From the NCBI GenBank assembly GCA_002440045.1, contig DJRI01000004.1:304-11206 (forward strand): a DNA stretch of 10,903 bases, in the 5' to 3' direction. Source of the DNA: Ruminococcaceae bacterium UBA6364. Its GTDB lineage: Bacteria; Bacillota; Clostridia; Oscillospirales; Acutalibacteraceae. Position numbers and translations under genes: made by a program. Position 1 is the stretch's first letter, and each line of letters begins with the position of its first letter. This document shows, piece by piece, positions 3,863 through 9,807 of this stretch. Below the pieces are notes generated by a model. The model was not told the DNA's origin, searched no databases, and was given only the letters and a program-made list of their open reading frames with translations.

Positions 3863-3901
3863 ACCCTCTCATATAATCTAACAAGGATTATTTGGGAGGG
3901 T
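3863..3901 (+). promoter_or_regulatory. Long hairpin covering the spoIIID ribosome site, with an embedded -10 box
   Basis: The arms pair over 16 positions with one T/T mismatch and one G-U wobble: ACCCTCTCAT (3863-3872) with TTGGGAGGGT (3892-3901), and ATAATC (3873-3878) with GATTAT (3886-3891) around a 7-nt loop. The 3' arm contains GGGAGGG, the ribosome site of spoIIID. The 5' arm contains TATAAT (3872-3877), also readable as CATATAAT, one base off the sigma-E -10 consensus CATACAnT. I see no convincing -35. No T run follows, so this is not a normal terminator. It may silence translation of read-through RNA. Confidence 0.6.
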
Positions 3902-3906
3902 CTCAT

Positions 3907-4176
3907 TTGCTATATGATTATGAAGAGCGTGCAACGCTTCTCGGCGGATATATAATTGAAACCGGCGCAACGGTGCGCGAAGCGGCAAAAAAATTCGGCG
4001 TAAGTAAATCCACTGTACACAGCGACGTTACGGTTCGTCTTAAAAAAATCAATCCCGTGCTTTTTAAAGAGGTGCGAAAGGTGCTCGACATCAACAAAGA
4101 AGAGCGCCACATAAGAGGCGGAATTGCAACGCGTGAAAAGTACAGGCACAAAAACGGCGAAACGGCTAATGTGTAA
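3907..4176 (+). CDS. spoIIID: Stage III sporulation transcriptional regulator SpoIIID
   Basis: SpoIIID is a small DNA-binding protein that acts in the mother cell during sporulation, turning early sigma-E genes down and sigK-stage genes up. The start is the TTG at 3907, six bases after GGGAGGG; a TTG at 3892 would lie within that ribosome site. The resulting 89 residues match the usual length of about 85-95. The helix-turn-helix is at about 22-45 (TVREAAKKFGVSKSTVHSDV), and the basic C-terminal region RHIRGGIATREKYRHK at 67-82 is the second DNA contact area of the family. The similarity to Bacillus SpoIIID as I remember it is strong along the whole length. In B. subtilis the gene is transcribed with sigma-E; here only a -10-like CATATAAT is visible. 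The gene shows that the organism is, or descends from, a spore former. Confidence 0.95.
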   Translation: MLYDYEERATLLGGYIIETGATVREAAKKFGVSKSTVHSDVTVRLKKINPVLFKEVRKVLDINKEERHIRGGIATREKYRHKNGETANV

Positions 4177-4614: not shown

Positions 4615-5478
4615 ATGAAAAAATTATTTAAGGTTAGCGCGATACTTCTTGTTATCGCAATGCTCGCGGCGTTTGCTTCATGCGGCGGCAATAACGATTC
4701 AAAAGGCGACGTTGTAAAGGTTGTAGACATAGCCCTTACCGATGAAAATTACGCTTTCGGCGTAGCAAAAGATGACGCGGCGCTTCAGGAATCCGTCAAC
4801 TCGTTCATTAAAGAAATCAAAGAGAACGGCGAGCTTGACAAGATTGTTGAAAAATACTTCGGCAAAGGCACTCCCGAGGCGGTTGTTTCCGCTAAAGAGG
4901 ATTCTTCAAAAGACCAGCTTGTAGTTGTTACAAACGCGGCTTTCCCGCCGTTTGAGTATGTAGAAGGCGACTCTTTCTACGGCATTGATATGGAAATGGC
5001 AAAGCTTCTTGCAGACAAGCTCGGCAAAGAGCTCGTAATTAAGAATGTTGATTTTGACGCAGTTTGCACAACGGTTGACAGCGGCTATGCAGATGTTGCC
5101 GCGGCAGGTCTTACGGTTAACGAGGACAGAAAAGAGTTTGTTACCTTCTCGGAGCCTTATTACAAAGCGTCTCAGATGGTAATTGCAAAAGCGGACGATA
5201 CAACTTTTGACGGCTGCAAAACAGTTGAAGATGTTGAAAAAATTCTTAGCGGACTTGATTCTTCAAAGAAAATCGGTTATCAGACGGGCACAACCGGTGA
5301 GTATTATGTTACAGGTGACGAAAGCTGGGGCTTTGCAGGCTTTGACGCTCTCGGCGTAGGCTATTCAACAGGCGCACTTGCAGTGCAGGACCTTATCAAC
5401 GGCAACCTTGATTATGTTGTAATTGACGAAGCTCCCGCAAAAATGATAGTTTCCTCTTACAATGCACAAAATGCATAA
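4615..5478 (+). CDS. Amino-acid ABC transporter solute-binding lipoprotein 1, circularly permuted (lobe I then lobe II)
   Basis: This is a membrane-anchored receptor that should capture a polar amino acid outside the cell and deliver it to the permease encoded next. The 287 residues begin with a lipoprotein signal, with Cys23 as the lipid site (AFASC). The order of the rest is unusual. Residues about 35-86 (IALTDENYAFGVAK ... GELDKIVEKYFG) match what is normally the C-terminal end of the domain. A linker follows (87-100). Then the usual N-terminal start appears (LVVVTNAAFPPFEY, 102-115), and the protein ends at about 287, just after YVVIDEAPA, where the moved segment would normally follow. 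Total mature length equals one normal domain, so nothing seems lost. Arg172 (EDRKEFVTFSEPYY) and Asp271 should bind the amino acid's carboxylate and amino group. AGAGAGG precedes the ATG by eight bases. No missing C-terminus is visible in any + frame downstream. Confidence 0.88.
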   Translation: MKKLFKVSAILLVIAMLAAFASCGGNNDSKGDVVKVVDIALTDENYAFGVAKDDAALQESVNSFIKEIKENGELDKIVEKYFGKGTPEAVVSAKEDSSKDQLVVVTNAAFPPFEYVEGDSFYGIDMEMAKLLADKLGKELVIKNVDFDAVCTTVDSGYADVAAAGLTVNEDRKEFVTFSEPYYKASQMVIAKADDTTFDGCKTVEDVEKILSGLDSSKKIGYQTGTTGEYYVTGDESWGFAGFDALGVGYSTGALAVQDLINGNLDYVVIDEAPAKMIVSSYNAQNA

Positions 5479-5502
5479 ATAAGATAAATTGCACACCGAT
5501 GT

Positions 5503-5530
5503 GGGGCTGTAAAAATATTTTTACAGCCCC
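5503..5530. other. Perfect 28-bp palindrome after lipoprotein 1
   Basis: GGGGCTGTAAAAAT (5503-5516) is followed directly by its exact complement. In RNA this makes a strong hairpin without a following T run, so it is more likely a transcript-end protector or attenuator than a classic terminator. The CCCC arm (5527-5530) can instead pair with GGGG at 5535-5538. Confidence 0.6.
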
Positions 5531-5546
5531 ATTTGGGGAATTTAGC

Positions 5547-5583
5547 GCAAAATAAAGACTTCGGTGGTTTTTATTTGCTTTTT
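5547..5583 (+). terminator. Intrinsic terminator between lipoprotein 1 and permease
   Basis: GCAAAATAAAGAC (5547-5559) pairs with GTTTTTATTTGC (5567-5578), with one bulged A and one G-U pair around a 7-nt loop, followed by five T (5579-5583). It separates the lipoprotein 1 message from the permease operon. Confidence 0.7.
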
Positions 5584-5593
5584 CGGCAGGACT

Positions 5594-5622
5594 TTTTTGT
5601 GTTATTAAAAAGCTTGTATAAT
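5594..5622 (+). promoter_or_regulatory. Candidate promoter of permease-ATPase-lipoprotein 2
   Basis: A consensus TATAAT at 5617-5622 in the context CTTGTATAAT, with a weak -35 (TTTTTG, 5594-5599) at a 17-nt spacer. The start near 5629 favours the ATG at 5673 for the permease. Confidence 0.5.
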
Positions 5623-5672
5623 GCGGCAAATTGTTGTATTATGTAATCAATTTCGCAACGGACGGTAAATTT

Positions 5673-6380
5673 ATGAGTAATTTTTCGACAAAATGGGACT
5701 TTTTTGTTAAGGTTCTTATTGAAAAGGGCGCTTACAAACAGGTGCTCGACGGACTTAAATGCACGCTTATCATAGCGGTTTGCGGCCTTCTTATAGGTGT
5801 TGCGATAGGCACCTTGATAGCGGTGGTGAAAATACTGCCCGAAAAAATAAAGGTTGCCGCGGTGTTAAAAAAAGCGGCTGATATTTATGTCGCTTTTTTC
5901 AGAGGAACACCGATGGTTGTTCAGCTTCTTCTCGGCTATTATGTTCTCTTGCCGCTTCTTGAAATAAGAACAACACCGCTTGTCGCATGCGTAGTTATAT
6001 TCGGCCTTAACAGCGGCGCATATGTTTCGGAAATAATGCGCTCGGGGCTTTTGTCGGTAGATTACGGTCAGACCGAGGCGGGCAGGGCGCTCGGGCTTTC
6101 GTATCCGTTAACTCTTATGCGCATTGTCGTGCCCCAGGCAATAAAAAATATTTTGCCGACCTTAGGCAACGAGTTTATAACTCTTGTAAAAGAAACGTCT
6201 ATAGTCAGCTTCGTCGGTGCGGTTGACCTTTGCACGGCGTTTAAAAACATCGGCAACAGCAACTACGAATATATGGTGCCTTATACGGTAATGGCGCTTG
6301 TTTATATAGTTTTGGTTCTTATTATTACCGTGGCAATCAGACTGATGGAAAAGAGGTTGAGAGCAAGTGACAAACGCTGA
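5673..6380 (+). CDS. Polar amino-acid ABC transporter permease (HisM/GlnP type)
   Basis: This is the membrane channel of a polar amino-acid importer (PAAT family); it forms a dimer in the cytoplasmic membrane and binds the ATPase encoded next. I start it at the ATG 5673 (235 aa) because GGACGG (5660-5665) lies seven bases before it. A TTG at 5631 in the same frame is almost at the predicted transcript start. The first membrane segment is at about 29-52 ([21 protein letters not shown]), followed by [31 protein letters not shown] and a last segment [19 protein letters not shown]. The cytoplasmic EAA loop, which touches the ATPase, is plain: [20 protein letters not shown]. Length is normal for the family (about 220-240). 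The stop overlaps the ATPase start by 14 nt. The substrate cannot be read from the sequence. Confidence 0.93.
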
Positions 6381-7314
6381 ACCCATAATTTACGCAAAAA
6401 ATATTTATAAAAACTTCGGCGACGTCAAGGTGCTCAAGGGCGTTTCGCTTGACATCGAAAAAGGCGAGCGCATAGTTATAATCGGCGCTTCGGGAAGCGG
6501 CAAAAGCACATTTTTGCGCTGTCTTAACCTGCTTGAAGAGCCGACCTTCGGTGAGGTCTGGTGCGAGGGCAAGCTTGTAACGCCCGTTGACCCCTACCTT
6601 CATAAGGACGTCATAGAGCTTTCAGATACATATAAAAAGCTTTTTAATGAGTTTAAGGCTCAAAACGCAGGGCTTTCCGATGAAGAGGTTAAAGAAAAGC
6701 TGATTCAAAAAATTAAAAAAGAGGACCTTTTAAACGAAAAACACGAGGGCAAAGCGTATAAATCGCTAATGAAGCAGATTTACCGCGAGAATTATATCAA
6801 CATAAACCTCGCAAGGCAAAAAATAGGTATGGTTTTTCAGCAGTTCAACCTGTTCAATAACCTGTCTATTATCGACAATATCACATTAGCCCCCATGAAG
6901 CTTTTGGGGCTTGACAAGACTTCCGCCGAAAAAAGGGCGATAGAGCTTTTAGAGAGAATCGGCCTTGCCGATAAAGCAAACGCATATCCCCAACAGCTTT
7001 CGGGCGGTCAGAAACAGCGCATAGCAATTGTGCGCGCGCTTGCCATGAACCCCGACGTTATGCTGTTTGACGAGCCAACCTCGGCTTTGGACCCCGAAAT
7101 GGTCGGCGAGGTTTTGGACGTTATGAAAGAGCTTGCCGAAAGCGGTATGACAATGGTTGTCGTAACGCACGAAATGGGCTTTGCAAAAGAGGTTGCCACG
7201 CGCGTTCTTTTCATCGACAACGGCATTATCGCAGAACAGGGCACGCCCGAAGAAATTTTTAAAGAGCCGAAGTGCGAACGCCTTAAAACTTTTTTGGGAA
7301 AGGTTCTTATCTGA
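6367..7314 (+). CDS. Polar amino-acid ABC transporter ATPase with an extra charged insertion
   Basis: This is the ATP-hydrolysing subunit that powers the permease just upstream, on the inner face of the membrane. It starts at GTG 6367, inside the end of the permease gene; AGAGG at 6352-6356 is the likely ribosome site. The 315 residues exceed the usual 240-250. All motifs are present: Walker [10 protein letters not shown] 40-48, Q-loop [10 protein letters not shown] with Gln158/159, signature LSGGQ 211-215, Walker B VMLFDEP with Asp235 and Glu236, D-loop SALD 239-242, and His268. The extra length is one block at about 74-148, between the early strand GEVWCEGK and the Q-loop, rich in Lys and Glu and likely helical ([31 protein letters not shown]). 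The flanks read as normal family sequence, so it is a true in-frame insertion rather than a frameshift. It may make extra contacts with the permease loop or bind a regulator; this is inference. Confidence 0.94.
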
Positions 7315-7315
7315 A

Positions 7316-8095
7316 ATGAAAAGGAGCTTTAAAAGCCGCATTTTCAAATCCGTTCTTTGCGCGGTGCTTGCCGCGTCAATACTTTGTTTTACAGCCTGCA
7401 ACGAAAAAGCCGTTGCGGGCGAAGCTGTTTTTGTTGAAAAAACTGTGGGCGCGCCTGTCAATACCGATGAATATGACGTTGCAAAAAGCTATGAAACCGC
7501 AGGCGCGAAAACTGTCGGCTTCAAGACGCTTGACGACGCGTTTTTCGCTCTCGAAAACAAAAAGGTAGACCTTGTTCTTACAGATGAAATTGAGGCTTCA
7601 AAAAGAGTTCGCGAAAATAAACGCTTTGAAATTAAAACCGAATGCAGTGCAAAAGAGAGCTTTTGCGTGTATTTTGAAAAGTCAAGCCCGCTTTTGGGCG
7701 AATTTAATGCCGCAATAAAGGCGCTTAAAAATGACGGAACGCTCGATAATATAAGAAAGGCATATGTTTCGGGTGAAGAATACAAGCCGCGCTATTTAAA
7801 GACGGACGGCAAAAAGCTTGTTATGGCAACCGAAGGCACGGTTTCGCCGTTTTCAGTCAAGAGTGCCGACGGTGTTTTTTCGGGGATAGATGTTGACAGT
7901 GCAAAAGAAATTTGCGGCTATCTCGGCTATTCGCTTGAAATACGCTCGTTTTCATTTGAAGAATTGCAGGACGCGCTTATTGAAGGCAGTGCCGATTTTT
8001 ATATGTCGGCGGCGCTCCCGACAGAAGAAAGAGCGGAGACTCTTGAATTTTCGGAGCCTTATTATACGTTGTATTATGTCGCTGTGGGCTATTAA
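7316..8095 (+). CDS. Amino-acid ABC transporter solute-binding lipoprotein 2, circularly permuted (lobe II then lobe I)
   Basis: This is the second receptor of the importer. I use the ATG at 7316, one base after the ATPase stop; starts upstream would lie inside the ATPase and miss the signal peptide. The 259 residues open with a lipoprotein signal, with Cys28 (CFTAC) as the lipid site. Residues about 36-95 (TVGFKTLDDAFFALENKKVD, then LVLTDE) resemble lobe II of a normal domain. Residues 103-160 (FEIKTECSAKESFCVYF ... KNDGTLDNIRKAYVSGEE) are the normal C-terminal end. Residues 167-259 (KLVMATEGTVSPFSV ... LEFSEPYYTLYYVAVGY) are the normal N-terminal half of lobe I, placed last. The protein stops exactly at the first hinge strand. 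Arg239 and Asp90 match the ligand-binding Arg and Asp of the family. It is more diverged than lipoprotein 1, so it may bind another amino acid. AAAGG at 7299-7303 is a distant ribosome site, so translational coupling is likely. Confidence 0.85.
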   Translation: MKRSFKSRIFKSVLCAVLAASILCFTACNEKAVAGEAVFVEKTVGAPVNTDEYDVAKSYETAGAKTVGFKTLDDAFFALENKKVDLVLTDEIEASKRVRENKRFEIKTECSAKESFCVYFEKSSPLLGEFNAAIKALKNDGTLDNIRKAYVSGEEYKPRYLKTDGKKLVMATEGTVSPFSVKSADGVFSGIDVDSAKEICGYLGYSLEIRSFSFEELQDALIEGSADFYMSAALPTEERAETLEFSEPYYTLYYVAVGY

Positions 8096-8199: not shown

Positions 8200-8232
8200 C
8201 TTAAAGATTTAGTAACCGTGGAGGTGTCTTTT

Positions 8233-9807
8233 TTGGCTAACAATAAGGCAGAAGTCAAGGAAGAAATCGTTGATAACCCGGGTGAACTTGATGCCGCATC
8301 AAGAGAATACGTTTATGAAAACCGTCGCTATGTAGGTATGAAAGAGACGGTCTGGTATGTAATTTACGATATGTGCCAGAGCTTTAACATAGACAGCTTC
8401 TCATCCCGATTTGTTACGAATATTCTTCAGGTCGATCTCGACTATCAGACAATAATCAACCTGGTAAACGGTATTTGGGACGTCGTTAACGACGTGTTTA
8501 CCGCCGCCATCGTTGAAAAAACCCGTACCCGTTGGGGCAAATTCAAGCCGTATCTTGTTGCGCTCGGTATTCCCGGAACGCTCGGTACATGCTTATATTG
8601 GCTCCTCCCGATGTTCTTTAAAGGCAAAGGACCGAGGGACCTTTCAAAATTCATTACATATTTCATTCTTGCCATTGTCCGTGAGGGCGCGGGCACGTTC
8701 CGTGCCATTGCAAAGACAGGTATGCTTGCGACAATTACGCCGCACCCTGTCGACAGAACGCGTCTTATAACCCAGGCCGAGTTCTGGTCGGGCTTTTTGG
8801 GCGAGAAGCTTCCGTCGCAGATAACAACGGTTCTTCTTGACCTTATCGGCAACAAGGTTATCAATCTTACCTACACGTCAACGTTTATGTTTATGGGTAA
8901 CTTTACCGCTATCATAAGCGGTGTTGCGGCACTTGTATTCTGCGTTATGACGCGTGAGCGTGTTCTTCAGTCAATCGAAACGCCGAGCGTTATGCAGGGC
9001 GTTAAGTCAATCATCAACAACAAGCCCATTCTTTTGCTTACGCTTTCCGAAACGCTTTCAAGCTTCGGCGTAGGCGGCAGTGACAACGACTATTTCATAG
9101 ACGTTCTTAACTTTGCTTCAATGACGCTTGTTAAAGGTATTCCCGGCGCAATAATTAACCCGTTCGCCTTCTATCTCGTTCCGTGGTTCAGAAGAAAGTT
9201 CTCAACGCGCTTCCTTTATATTATGGGTCGCTATATAGGCAGCTTCCTTAACATTCCCGTTTATTTACTCGGCTCAATCGGCGGCAAGCACAACGGTGTT
9301 TACAAACGCGTTTTGCCGATGTTCTTCATTCTCGCCGCACAGGAGTCGCTGTTTATGGTATTCTACGGCGTTCGCCGCGTTATACCGAGCGAAATGTTCA
9401 ACGAAGCTATGGACTACTGCGAGTGGAAAAACGGCTACAGAACAGAGGCTATGACTTCTGTTGCAAAGGGTCTTGCTTCAAAGCTTGCAAACGTTTTCAG
9501 CGGACTTATTTCGCTTCAGCTTAAAAAGATTATCGGTTACGACATTACCTCTTACACAAGGGGAGAAGCTCAGACCGACGCCACAAAGTTCGGACTTTTC
9601 CAGATGTGCACAATCGTTCCCGCGGTTACGGGCCTTTTGGGTATCATTCCGATATTATTCTATGACCTTGTCGGCGAAAAGAGAGAGCGTATGTATGCAG
9701 AGCTTCTCAAACGCCGTGAGGACGCTTCGAGAAAAGCGGCTTCGGGCGACAAAGAGGCTATGGCGACTCTTGCAAAAGAACAGCTTGAAATCGGCTCTCA
9801 CAAATAA
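8233..9807 (+). CDS. GPH-family (MFS_2, MelB-like) cation:sugar symporter
   Basis: This is a cytoplasmic-membrane carrier of the glycoside-pentoside-hexuronide symporter family, which takes up sugars or glycosides with Na+ or H+. The start is the TTG at 8233: GGAGG (8220-8224) lies eight bases before it, whereas the GTG at 8218 overlaps that site. The 524 residues contain the family's loop signature, WDVVNDVFTAAIVEKTRTRW at 82-101 followed by GKFKPYL, with Asp83 and Asp87 at the positions of cation-linked acids in MelB. They also contain the second conserved stretch HPVDRTRLITQAEF at 171-184. Many hydrophobic segments fit a 12-helix carrier. The N-terminal 30 residues and the C-terminal 30 or so (KRREDASRKAASGDKEAM) are charged and cytoplasmic, making it slightly longer than the usual 450-500. 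The substrate cannot be told: no glycosidase or sugar regulator is adjacent. It has two promoters and its own terminator. Confidence 0.85.
   Translation: MANNKAEVKEEIVDNPGELDAASREYVYENRRYVGMKETVWYVIYDMCQSFNIDSFSSRFVTNILQVDLDYQTIINLVNGIWDVVNDVFTAAIVEKTRTRWGKFKPYLVALGIPGTLGTCLYWLLPMFFKGKGPRDLSKFITYFILAIVREGAGTFRAIAKTGMLATITPHPVDRTRLITQAEFWSGFLGEKLPSQITTVLLDLIGNKVINLTYTSTFMFMGNFTAIISGVAALVFCVMTRERVLQSIETPSVMQGVKSIINNKPILLLTLSETLSSFGVGGSDNDYFIDVLNFASMTLVKGIPGAIINPFAFYLVPWFRRKFSTRFLYIMGRYIGSFLNIPVYLLGSIGGKHNGVYKRVLPMFFILAAQESLFMVFYGVRRVIPSEMFNEAMDYCEWKNGYRTEAMTSVAKGLASKLANVFSGLISLQLKKIIGYDITSYTRGEAQTDATKFGLFQMCTIVPAVTGLLGIIPILFYDLVGEKRERMYAELLKRREDASRKAASGDKEAMATLAKEQLEIGSHK

Follow-up and report, generated by a model that had tools for sequence, protein, structure and literature searches.

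Can the binding receptor of an amino-acid importer of the ATP-binding cassette (ABC) kind be re-ordered along its chain during evolution, and how often has this happened? This question is raised by a stretch of 10,903 nt of Ruminococcaceae bacterium UBA6364 (hereafter the window, within which coordinates are numbered), located in contig C120 of a genome assembly of 2.03 Mb that comprises 180 contigs and is 81% complete. A lipoprotein receptor, R1 (287 amino acids, aa), a permease, an ATPase (315 aa), a second lipoprotein receptor, R2 (259 aa), and an MFS_2 transporter follow one another on the plus strand; the gene calls and coordinates that a preliminary description of this DNA gave for the four-gene stretch 4615..8095 are correct. 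Both receptors pass the cut-off of the family PF00497 (SBP_bac_3), yet neither has its canonical order. We distinguish three parts of the receptor, namely N (the N-terminal part of lobe 1 and the hinge-1 strand), L (lobe 2) and C (the hinge-2 strand and the C-terminal part of lobe 1). The canonical order is N-L-C, whereas R1 reads C-N-L and R2 reads L-C-N. In the following, G designates a genome (G000 being the window's own), L with a number a fetched locus, P a protein homologue and C with a number a contig.

Firstly, the order of the parts was scored with separate segment profiles for N, L and C. A six-frame Pfam search gave matches out of order: in R1, profile part 97-132 (E 6.1e-8) precedes part 1-96 (E 8.5e-24), and in R2, part 48-130 (E 6.7e-4, which is below the curated cut-off) precedes part 1-84 (E 1.2e-18). 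On the solved receptor AncQR (4zv1), R1 residues 34-84 correspond to residues 183-233 and R1 101-279 to 11-175; R2 44-151 corresponds to 118-229 and R2 170-253 to 12-95. The AlphaFold2 models are confident, with a mean predicted local distance difference test (pLDDT) value of 89.1 for R1 and 85.6 for R2, and these predicted models have the two-lobed receptor fold; residues 97-286 of the R1 model superpose on 4zv1 as far as its residue 182, and GluR0 (1ii5) is among the structure matches. Pfam, AncQR and the segment profiles agree, and R1 and R2 are confirmed as circular permutants of PF00497 amino-acid receptors in two different orders, flanking one permease and one enlarged ATPase as the preliminary description had stated. 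It had placed the cuts at the hinges and left a single connection between the lobes, which has to be corrected: the chain breaks lie at AncQR ~176-182 (R1) and ~102-117 (R2), just inside lobe 2 and past the hinge. Because R1 has the hinge-2 strand at its N-end and R2 the hinge-1 strand (250-258) at its C-end, both hinge crossing strands should persist, judging from the alignments and the predicted strands, and lobe 2 should carry both chain ends in R1 and in R2.

Secondly, we found permutation in place at one locus of the window's genus. In 14 genomes, a homologous divergent gene precedes a receptor-permease-ATPase operon (with one gene between in G012); this divergent gene shows 38-87% identity among the printed pairs, and the one copy typed with Pfam is a leucine-rich repeat protein (LRR_5) with dockerin. 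The receptor of the operon is canonical in eight genomes (G007, G008, G011, G012, G013, G014, G018 and G020), L-C-N in three (G002, G006 and G015) and C-N-L in three (G001, G005 and G017). The canonical G011 and the L-C-N G002 are collinear in the upstream flank including the signal peptide (70.5% over 1,415 columns), in most of the permease together with the ATPase (83.6% over 1,376 columns) and in the downstream flank (81.7% over 2,175 columns). In the receptor itself, however, two pieces have traded positions, N with 75.4% and L+C with 77.6% identity; this is a circular permutation behind a retained signal peptide. Once re-ordered, the G011 receptor is 69-75% identical to the three L-C-N receptors. 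Sister species hold N-L-C and L-C-N versions of one receptor at one syntenic locus. The C-N-L G001 and the canonical G018 are 85.9% identical in the upstream DNA as far as the lipobox and 79.7% in the downstream DNA, and share 24 of 25 signal-peptide residues; neither the body of the receptor nor the bulk of the permease can be aligned, and in G001 these are of the R1 type. An R1-type body between conserved flanks therefore suggests a cassette exchange that left the signal peptide in front of it nearly unchanged.

Among the fetched loci, L241 compared with L058, L061 and L057 shows canonical and permuted versions of one receptor at the genus locus, and the L-C-N copies retain a tail resembling the start of lobe 2. 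In L227 compared with L072, an R1-type cassette appears to stand in for the body of the receptor and the greater part of the permease, with the flanks conserved.

Thirdly, we assessed how often the order has changed. The 22 genomes of the window's genus yield 69 PF00497 matches at E 1e-10 or better, 29 of them permuted. A single in-order stretch up to profile position 118 or more is seen in 37 matches; the other 32 stop at profile position 103 or before and are composed of 24 L-C-N receptors, 5 C-N-L receptors and 3 large proteins with a lone N part. Within the 24, the class of G008:C12, G002:C66 and G021:C266 rests on C before a terminal N with L unscored, one of these being cut by a contig end, and the L part is weak in some others. 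Receptor trees were built from re-ordered sequences, and give the number of order changes rather than their direction (gain or loss of an order). A quick tree of 121 receptors requires 12 order changes against 47.8 with shuffled labels, a careful tree of 68 requires 8, and the 66-row tree used in approximately unbiased (AU) tests requires 6; the well-supported branches of the careful tree force at least four changes for L-C-N, two for C-N-L and five for N-L-C. Among the relatives, C-N-L receptors form two or more clades and L-C-N receptors several. All permuted receptors could descend from a single permuted ancestor, the canonical forms among them being reversions, and the order is indeed strongly clustered on the trees (0 of 500 label shuffles were as low, per group). 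The AU tests reject a single clade for all permuted receptors (p 0.0125), for all L-C-N (0.018) and for all C-N-L (0.008); moreover, the linkers that close the old ends between C and N differ from clade to clade, and one genus clade with support 100/96 mixes three L-C-N and four N-L-C rows. Single reversions are possible on these trees; a single permuted origin for all of them is quite improbable. Because the AU tests reject one clade of permuted forms, which the preliminary description had suggested testing on re-ordered trees, the repeated permutation that it had named as a possible route is well supported: in Clostridia, amino-acid receptors underwent permutation on several independent occasions, near the same two sites.

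The window's genome contains a third permuted receptor, R3 (L003:799-1725, in G000:C133), of order L-C-N, behind which come a permease and an ATPase of the usual size. It is directly preceded by a lysine riboswitch (L003:494-672; 88.9 bits, gathering score 30), and 6,126 homologues among 8,000 scored reach E 1e-10 or better, canonical ones probably included. This genome, which is incomplete, yielded four PF00497 receptors in all, three of them permuted. Elsewhere, a chain of 510 aa (L045) joins an L-C-N unit to the permease, and single-chain arrays of two (L065:5558-7801), three (L067:3433-6540, where the L part was not scored) or four (L066:617-4288) L-C-N units stand ahead of the permease. 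The L065, L066 and L067 arrays could just as well be read as canonical domains with half of an additional domain at either end. Among C-N-L receptors, those of L212-L219 have linkers unlike that of R1 and group near canonical receptors, and L243:5328-6269 (G010) encodes a divergent receptor of the same genus that lies outside the matches of the R1 profile at E 1e-40.

We then asked what kind of importer the window encodes. R1-permease-ATPase is a widespread three-gene importer type. At least 6,962 R1 homologues among 7,997 scored reach E 1e-10 or better, a number that will include canonical relatives, and the 120 listed are 48-99% identical to R1 with alignments spanning 87-100% of it. The best 80 R1-type loci, out of at least 585 confirmed on GTDB contigs (these 585 possibly including canonical receptors), are all C-N-L; the permease comes next in 79 and the ATPase is present in 77, the remaining three ending at contig ends. 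This locus set overlaps with the genome set (L110 is G001, L163 is G036, L114 is G017 and L117 is G005). R1-type receptors occur in 14 of 80 relatives and, with the window's genome counted, in 21 of 291 genomes sampled from the class and 2 of 249 genomes of the phylum sample. The window's permease falls within the His/Glu/Gln/Arg/opine permease class (TIGR01726). A GxTxxxxR-like motif, GTT and an Asp of lobe 2, which we take to be the amino-acid contact motifs of PF00497 receptors, are all present in R1 (as GLTVNEDR, GTT and the lobe-2 D) and are invariant or nearly so in 29 sequences. As far as the sequence allows us to judge, R1, permease and ATPase should import a polar amino acid. The enlargement of the ATPase marks the window's R1 subclade, independent of R2. 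A long insertion, with 106-107 residues from Walker A to the Q-loop, is found at 6 of 79 readable C-N-L loci (the window, L072 and its duplicate L110, L159, L163 and L177) and at none of the 9 L-C-N and 17 N-L-C loci where both motifs are readable; one further C-N-L locus has ~100 residues between the two motifs. Used as a query, the isolated insertion matches only G000, G001 and G036 among 80 relatives, and the window's R1 is the sister of that of G001 (support 100/98).

The preliminary description had interpreted the four genes as a distinct importer subtype, in which R1 and R2 would be a co-evolved complementary pair. The tight linkage in the window is consistent with this, and the R1 homologue P0002 (91%) and the R2 homologue P0122 (72%) each list a longest contig of 15,571 bases, so that a second species may carry the four-gene operon. 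Nevertheless, no L-C-N receptor stands behind the ATPase at any of the 67 R1 loci with at least 1.2 kb of sequence past that gene (three of them, L156, L157 and L186, have a canonical-type receptor farther on), R2 is found there in only one of the 12 R1-type relatives with the same room, this one being the window's own genome, and R1 and R2 fall in separate tree clades. A four-gene subtype is thus scarcely credible. R2 was added locally behind the ATPase and stems from a different permuted lineage. Its near full-length homologues at E 1e-10 or better are only P0121 (95%), P0122 (72%) and P0123 (46%); P0121 is a cluster of 91 member sequences, so R2 is not confined to one assembly. Remoter L-C-N lipoproteins, hereafter R2-like, were retrieved from 17 other genomes of the genus.

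We consider it likely that the window holds an importer with a permuted receptor, R1, to which a permuted R2 was added, within a recurrent permutation of such receptors in Clostridia. R1, permease and ATPase would form an ordinary type I amino-acid importer with a lipid-anchored permuted receptor, and R2, coming from a separate permuted lineage, would have been added tightly coupled behind the ATPase. In both permutants, a short linker joins the old ends and the new ends open in lobe 2; the two-lobed fold would be kept, while the lipid anchor would sit on lobe 2 rather than on lobe 1. Flytrap-like closure around the ligand would be preserved, and the permuted receptor could dock without a preferred side on the permease, presumably a homodimer because the operon has one permease gene. 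The most plausible route to the permutants is a tandem duplication that left the signal peptide in place and was later trimmed; the permuted arrays and the retained signal peptide are the reasons for favouring it. Receptors of this lineage might moreover be permuted so easily that order is an evolving trait, with all three versions at one genus locus, and was switched under selection as the anchor shift alters the way in which the receptor hangs over a symmetric permease; we find this rather doubtful. Anchoring alone fails to explain the recurrence, because canonical lipoproteins with almost the same signal peptide occupy the same locus.

Several observations weigh against this account of the window. 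No amino-acid permease flanks the R2-like genes at any of the 17 genus loci, some of which have short flanks, and this weakens a role of R2 in a shared importer. At its contact positions, R2 keeps R239 and D90 and has AALPTEER and VNTDEY in place of the R1-like motifs; its lobe-1 carboxylate motif has Leu where R1 has Thr (AALPTEER versus GLTVNEDR), and the ligand of R2 may therefore be a different one, or R2 may bind nothing. The loci examined contained no unfused tandem intermediate, and a riboswitch was found neither in the window nor at any of 20 R1-type loci. The missing permeases would fit with R2 serving the MFS_2 transporter, or being an orphan sensor, its place behind the ATPase being a chance of local gene order. 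An MFS_2 homologue lies directly behind the R2-like gene in five genomes (G001, G002, G011, G018 and G021, Pfam having been run on two), and R2 diverges faster than R1 (72% for P0122 versus 91% for P0002, if both come from one species). However, R2 begins after a gap of one base from the ATPase stop, as in translational coupling, whereas MFS_2 starts 122 bases past R2, and an MFS_2 homologue was not seen directly behind the R2-like gene at the other 12 loci. Service to MFS_2 or to a sensory role is accordingly a possibility that we take seriously, while judging it somewhat improbable. Across the genus, MFS_2 homologues sit either after an ABC operon or after an R2-like lipoprotein gene. The loss of one ligand-contact Thr in R2 and its rarity (three near full-length homologues) could also mean that these receptors are degenerate remnants of broken tandem domains rather than working proteins. 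This is very improbable in view of the R1-type proteins, which number at least 6,962 (non-permuted relatives included), cover 87-100% of R1 in the 120 listed and have conserved motifs and a conserved operon; of the R3 type with its riboswitch and many relatives; and of the confident models of R1 and R2.

How do these receptors compare with known systems? The canonical PF00497 importers HisJ-QMP, GlnHPQ and ArtJ share receptor, permease and ATPase families and lobe folds with the window's importer; they differ in their N-L-C order and in having the N-end or the lipid anchor on lobe 1. In GlnPQ of Lactococcus lactis (6h30), tandem domains provide a joint from C-end to N-end across which R1 and R2 match, but these domains are complete, canonical and in tandem, with no permuted unit, unlike R1 and R2. 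In the ligand core of ionotropic glutamate receptors, the pore is inserted after the hinge-1 strand, near the site where L-C-N receptors open; this is an insertion rather than a permutation. Natural circular permutation is usually regarded as rare and ancient. In the present case it is recurrent, in a receptor family that is among the best studied, and two species of a genus differ by a permutation in place between collinear flanks; with this pair, it becomes directly testable how permutation proceeds, how it affects flytrap closing and docking, and why it was selected. Domain searches report permuted receptors as ordinary family members or partial matches, which calls for caution. R1 and R2 match PF00497, which we take to be a Type II receptor family, and not the Type I / Cluster B sugar-receptor core. 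According to PMC4990184, a natural circular permutant of the latter fold is TpMglB-2 (Tp0684), a glucose-binding lipoprotein (Type Ic / Cluster Bc) that binds sugar and changes shape in vitro and has relatives also in Gram-positive and gut bacteria; its authors raise adaptation to anchoring as a possible cause. R1 and R2 resemble it as naturally permuted lipid-anchored ABC receptors, alike in working and not members of its group. TpMglB-2 shows a single type of permutation, with the cut inside its N lobe, unlike PF00497 receptors, which were opened at two sites, have several origins and occur at one locus in both canonical and permuted form. PMC6335823 describes engineered circular permutants of GltI in biosensors, so a permuted amino-acid receptor can keep ligand binding; these are laboratory-made, unlike the natural R1 and R2. 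A literature search that covered few subscription papers or preprints returned TpMglB-2 and engineered permutants and no account of natural permuted amino-acid receptors, and the accessible parts of PMC6588880, PMC7683729 and PMC9815098 do not describe any.

Features of the window encoding the two permuted receptors and their neighbours (window coordinates; bits, profile scores)
Feature	Position	Strand	Remarks
R1 lipoprotein	4615-5478	+	order C-N-L; SBP_bac_3 114 bits, cut-off 26.4
R1 signal peptide to lipobox Cys (residue 23)	4615..4683	+	C23 column invariant in 29 aligned sequences
R1 part C, hinge-2 strand and lobe-1 C-terminal part, residues 34-84, N-end	4714..4866	+	AncQR 183-233; profile C 81.5 bits
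R1 linker, old C-end to old N-end	4867..4914	+	clade-specific; length equal in nearly all listed clade members
R1 part N, lobe-1 N-terminal part and hinge-1 strand, residues 101-192	4915..5190	+	profile N 144 bits; GLTVNEDR at 165
R1 part L, lobe 2, residues 196-287, and stop	5200..5478	+	profile L 123 bits; GTT at 225, IDEAPA at 270
Permease, polar amino acid type	5631..6380 (probable ATG 5673)	+	BPD_transp_1 84.6 bits; TIGR01726 77.2 bits, cut-off 42.2
ATPase, 315 aa	6367..7314	+	ABC_tran 121.8 bits; top NCBIfam models EhuA, GlnQ and HisP, each below cut-off
ATPase region with ~68-residue insertion, Walker A to Q-loop	6565..6789 (ends approximate)	+	107 residues versus ~39 in the usual case
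R2 lipoprotein	7316-8095	+	order L-C-N; SBP_bac_3 85.5 bits, cut-off 26.4
R2 signal peptide to lipobox Cys (residue 28)	7316..7399	+	C28 invariant across four aligned sequences
R2 part L, lobe 2, residues 39-102, N-end	7430..7621	+	profile L 59 bits
R2 part C, hinge-2 strand and lobe-1 C-terminal part, residues 104-152	7625..7771	+	profile C 64 bits; predicted strand 105-121
R2 linker, old C-end to old N-end	7772..7813	+	differs from linkers of other permuted clades
R2 part N, lobe-1 N-terminal part ending in hinge-1 strand, residues 167-259, and stop	7814..8095	+	profile N 101 bits; predicted strand 250-258
MFS_2 transporter (GPH-type), adjoining R2	8218..9807	+	MFS_2 146 bits; genus homologues 70-80% identical

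Upstream of R1, where the genus locus has the LRR/dockerin-type gene, the window encodes a SpoIIID sporulation regulator (3892-4176).

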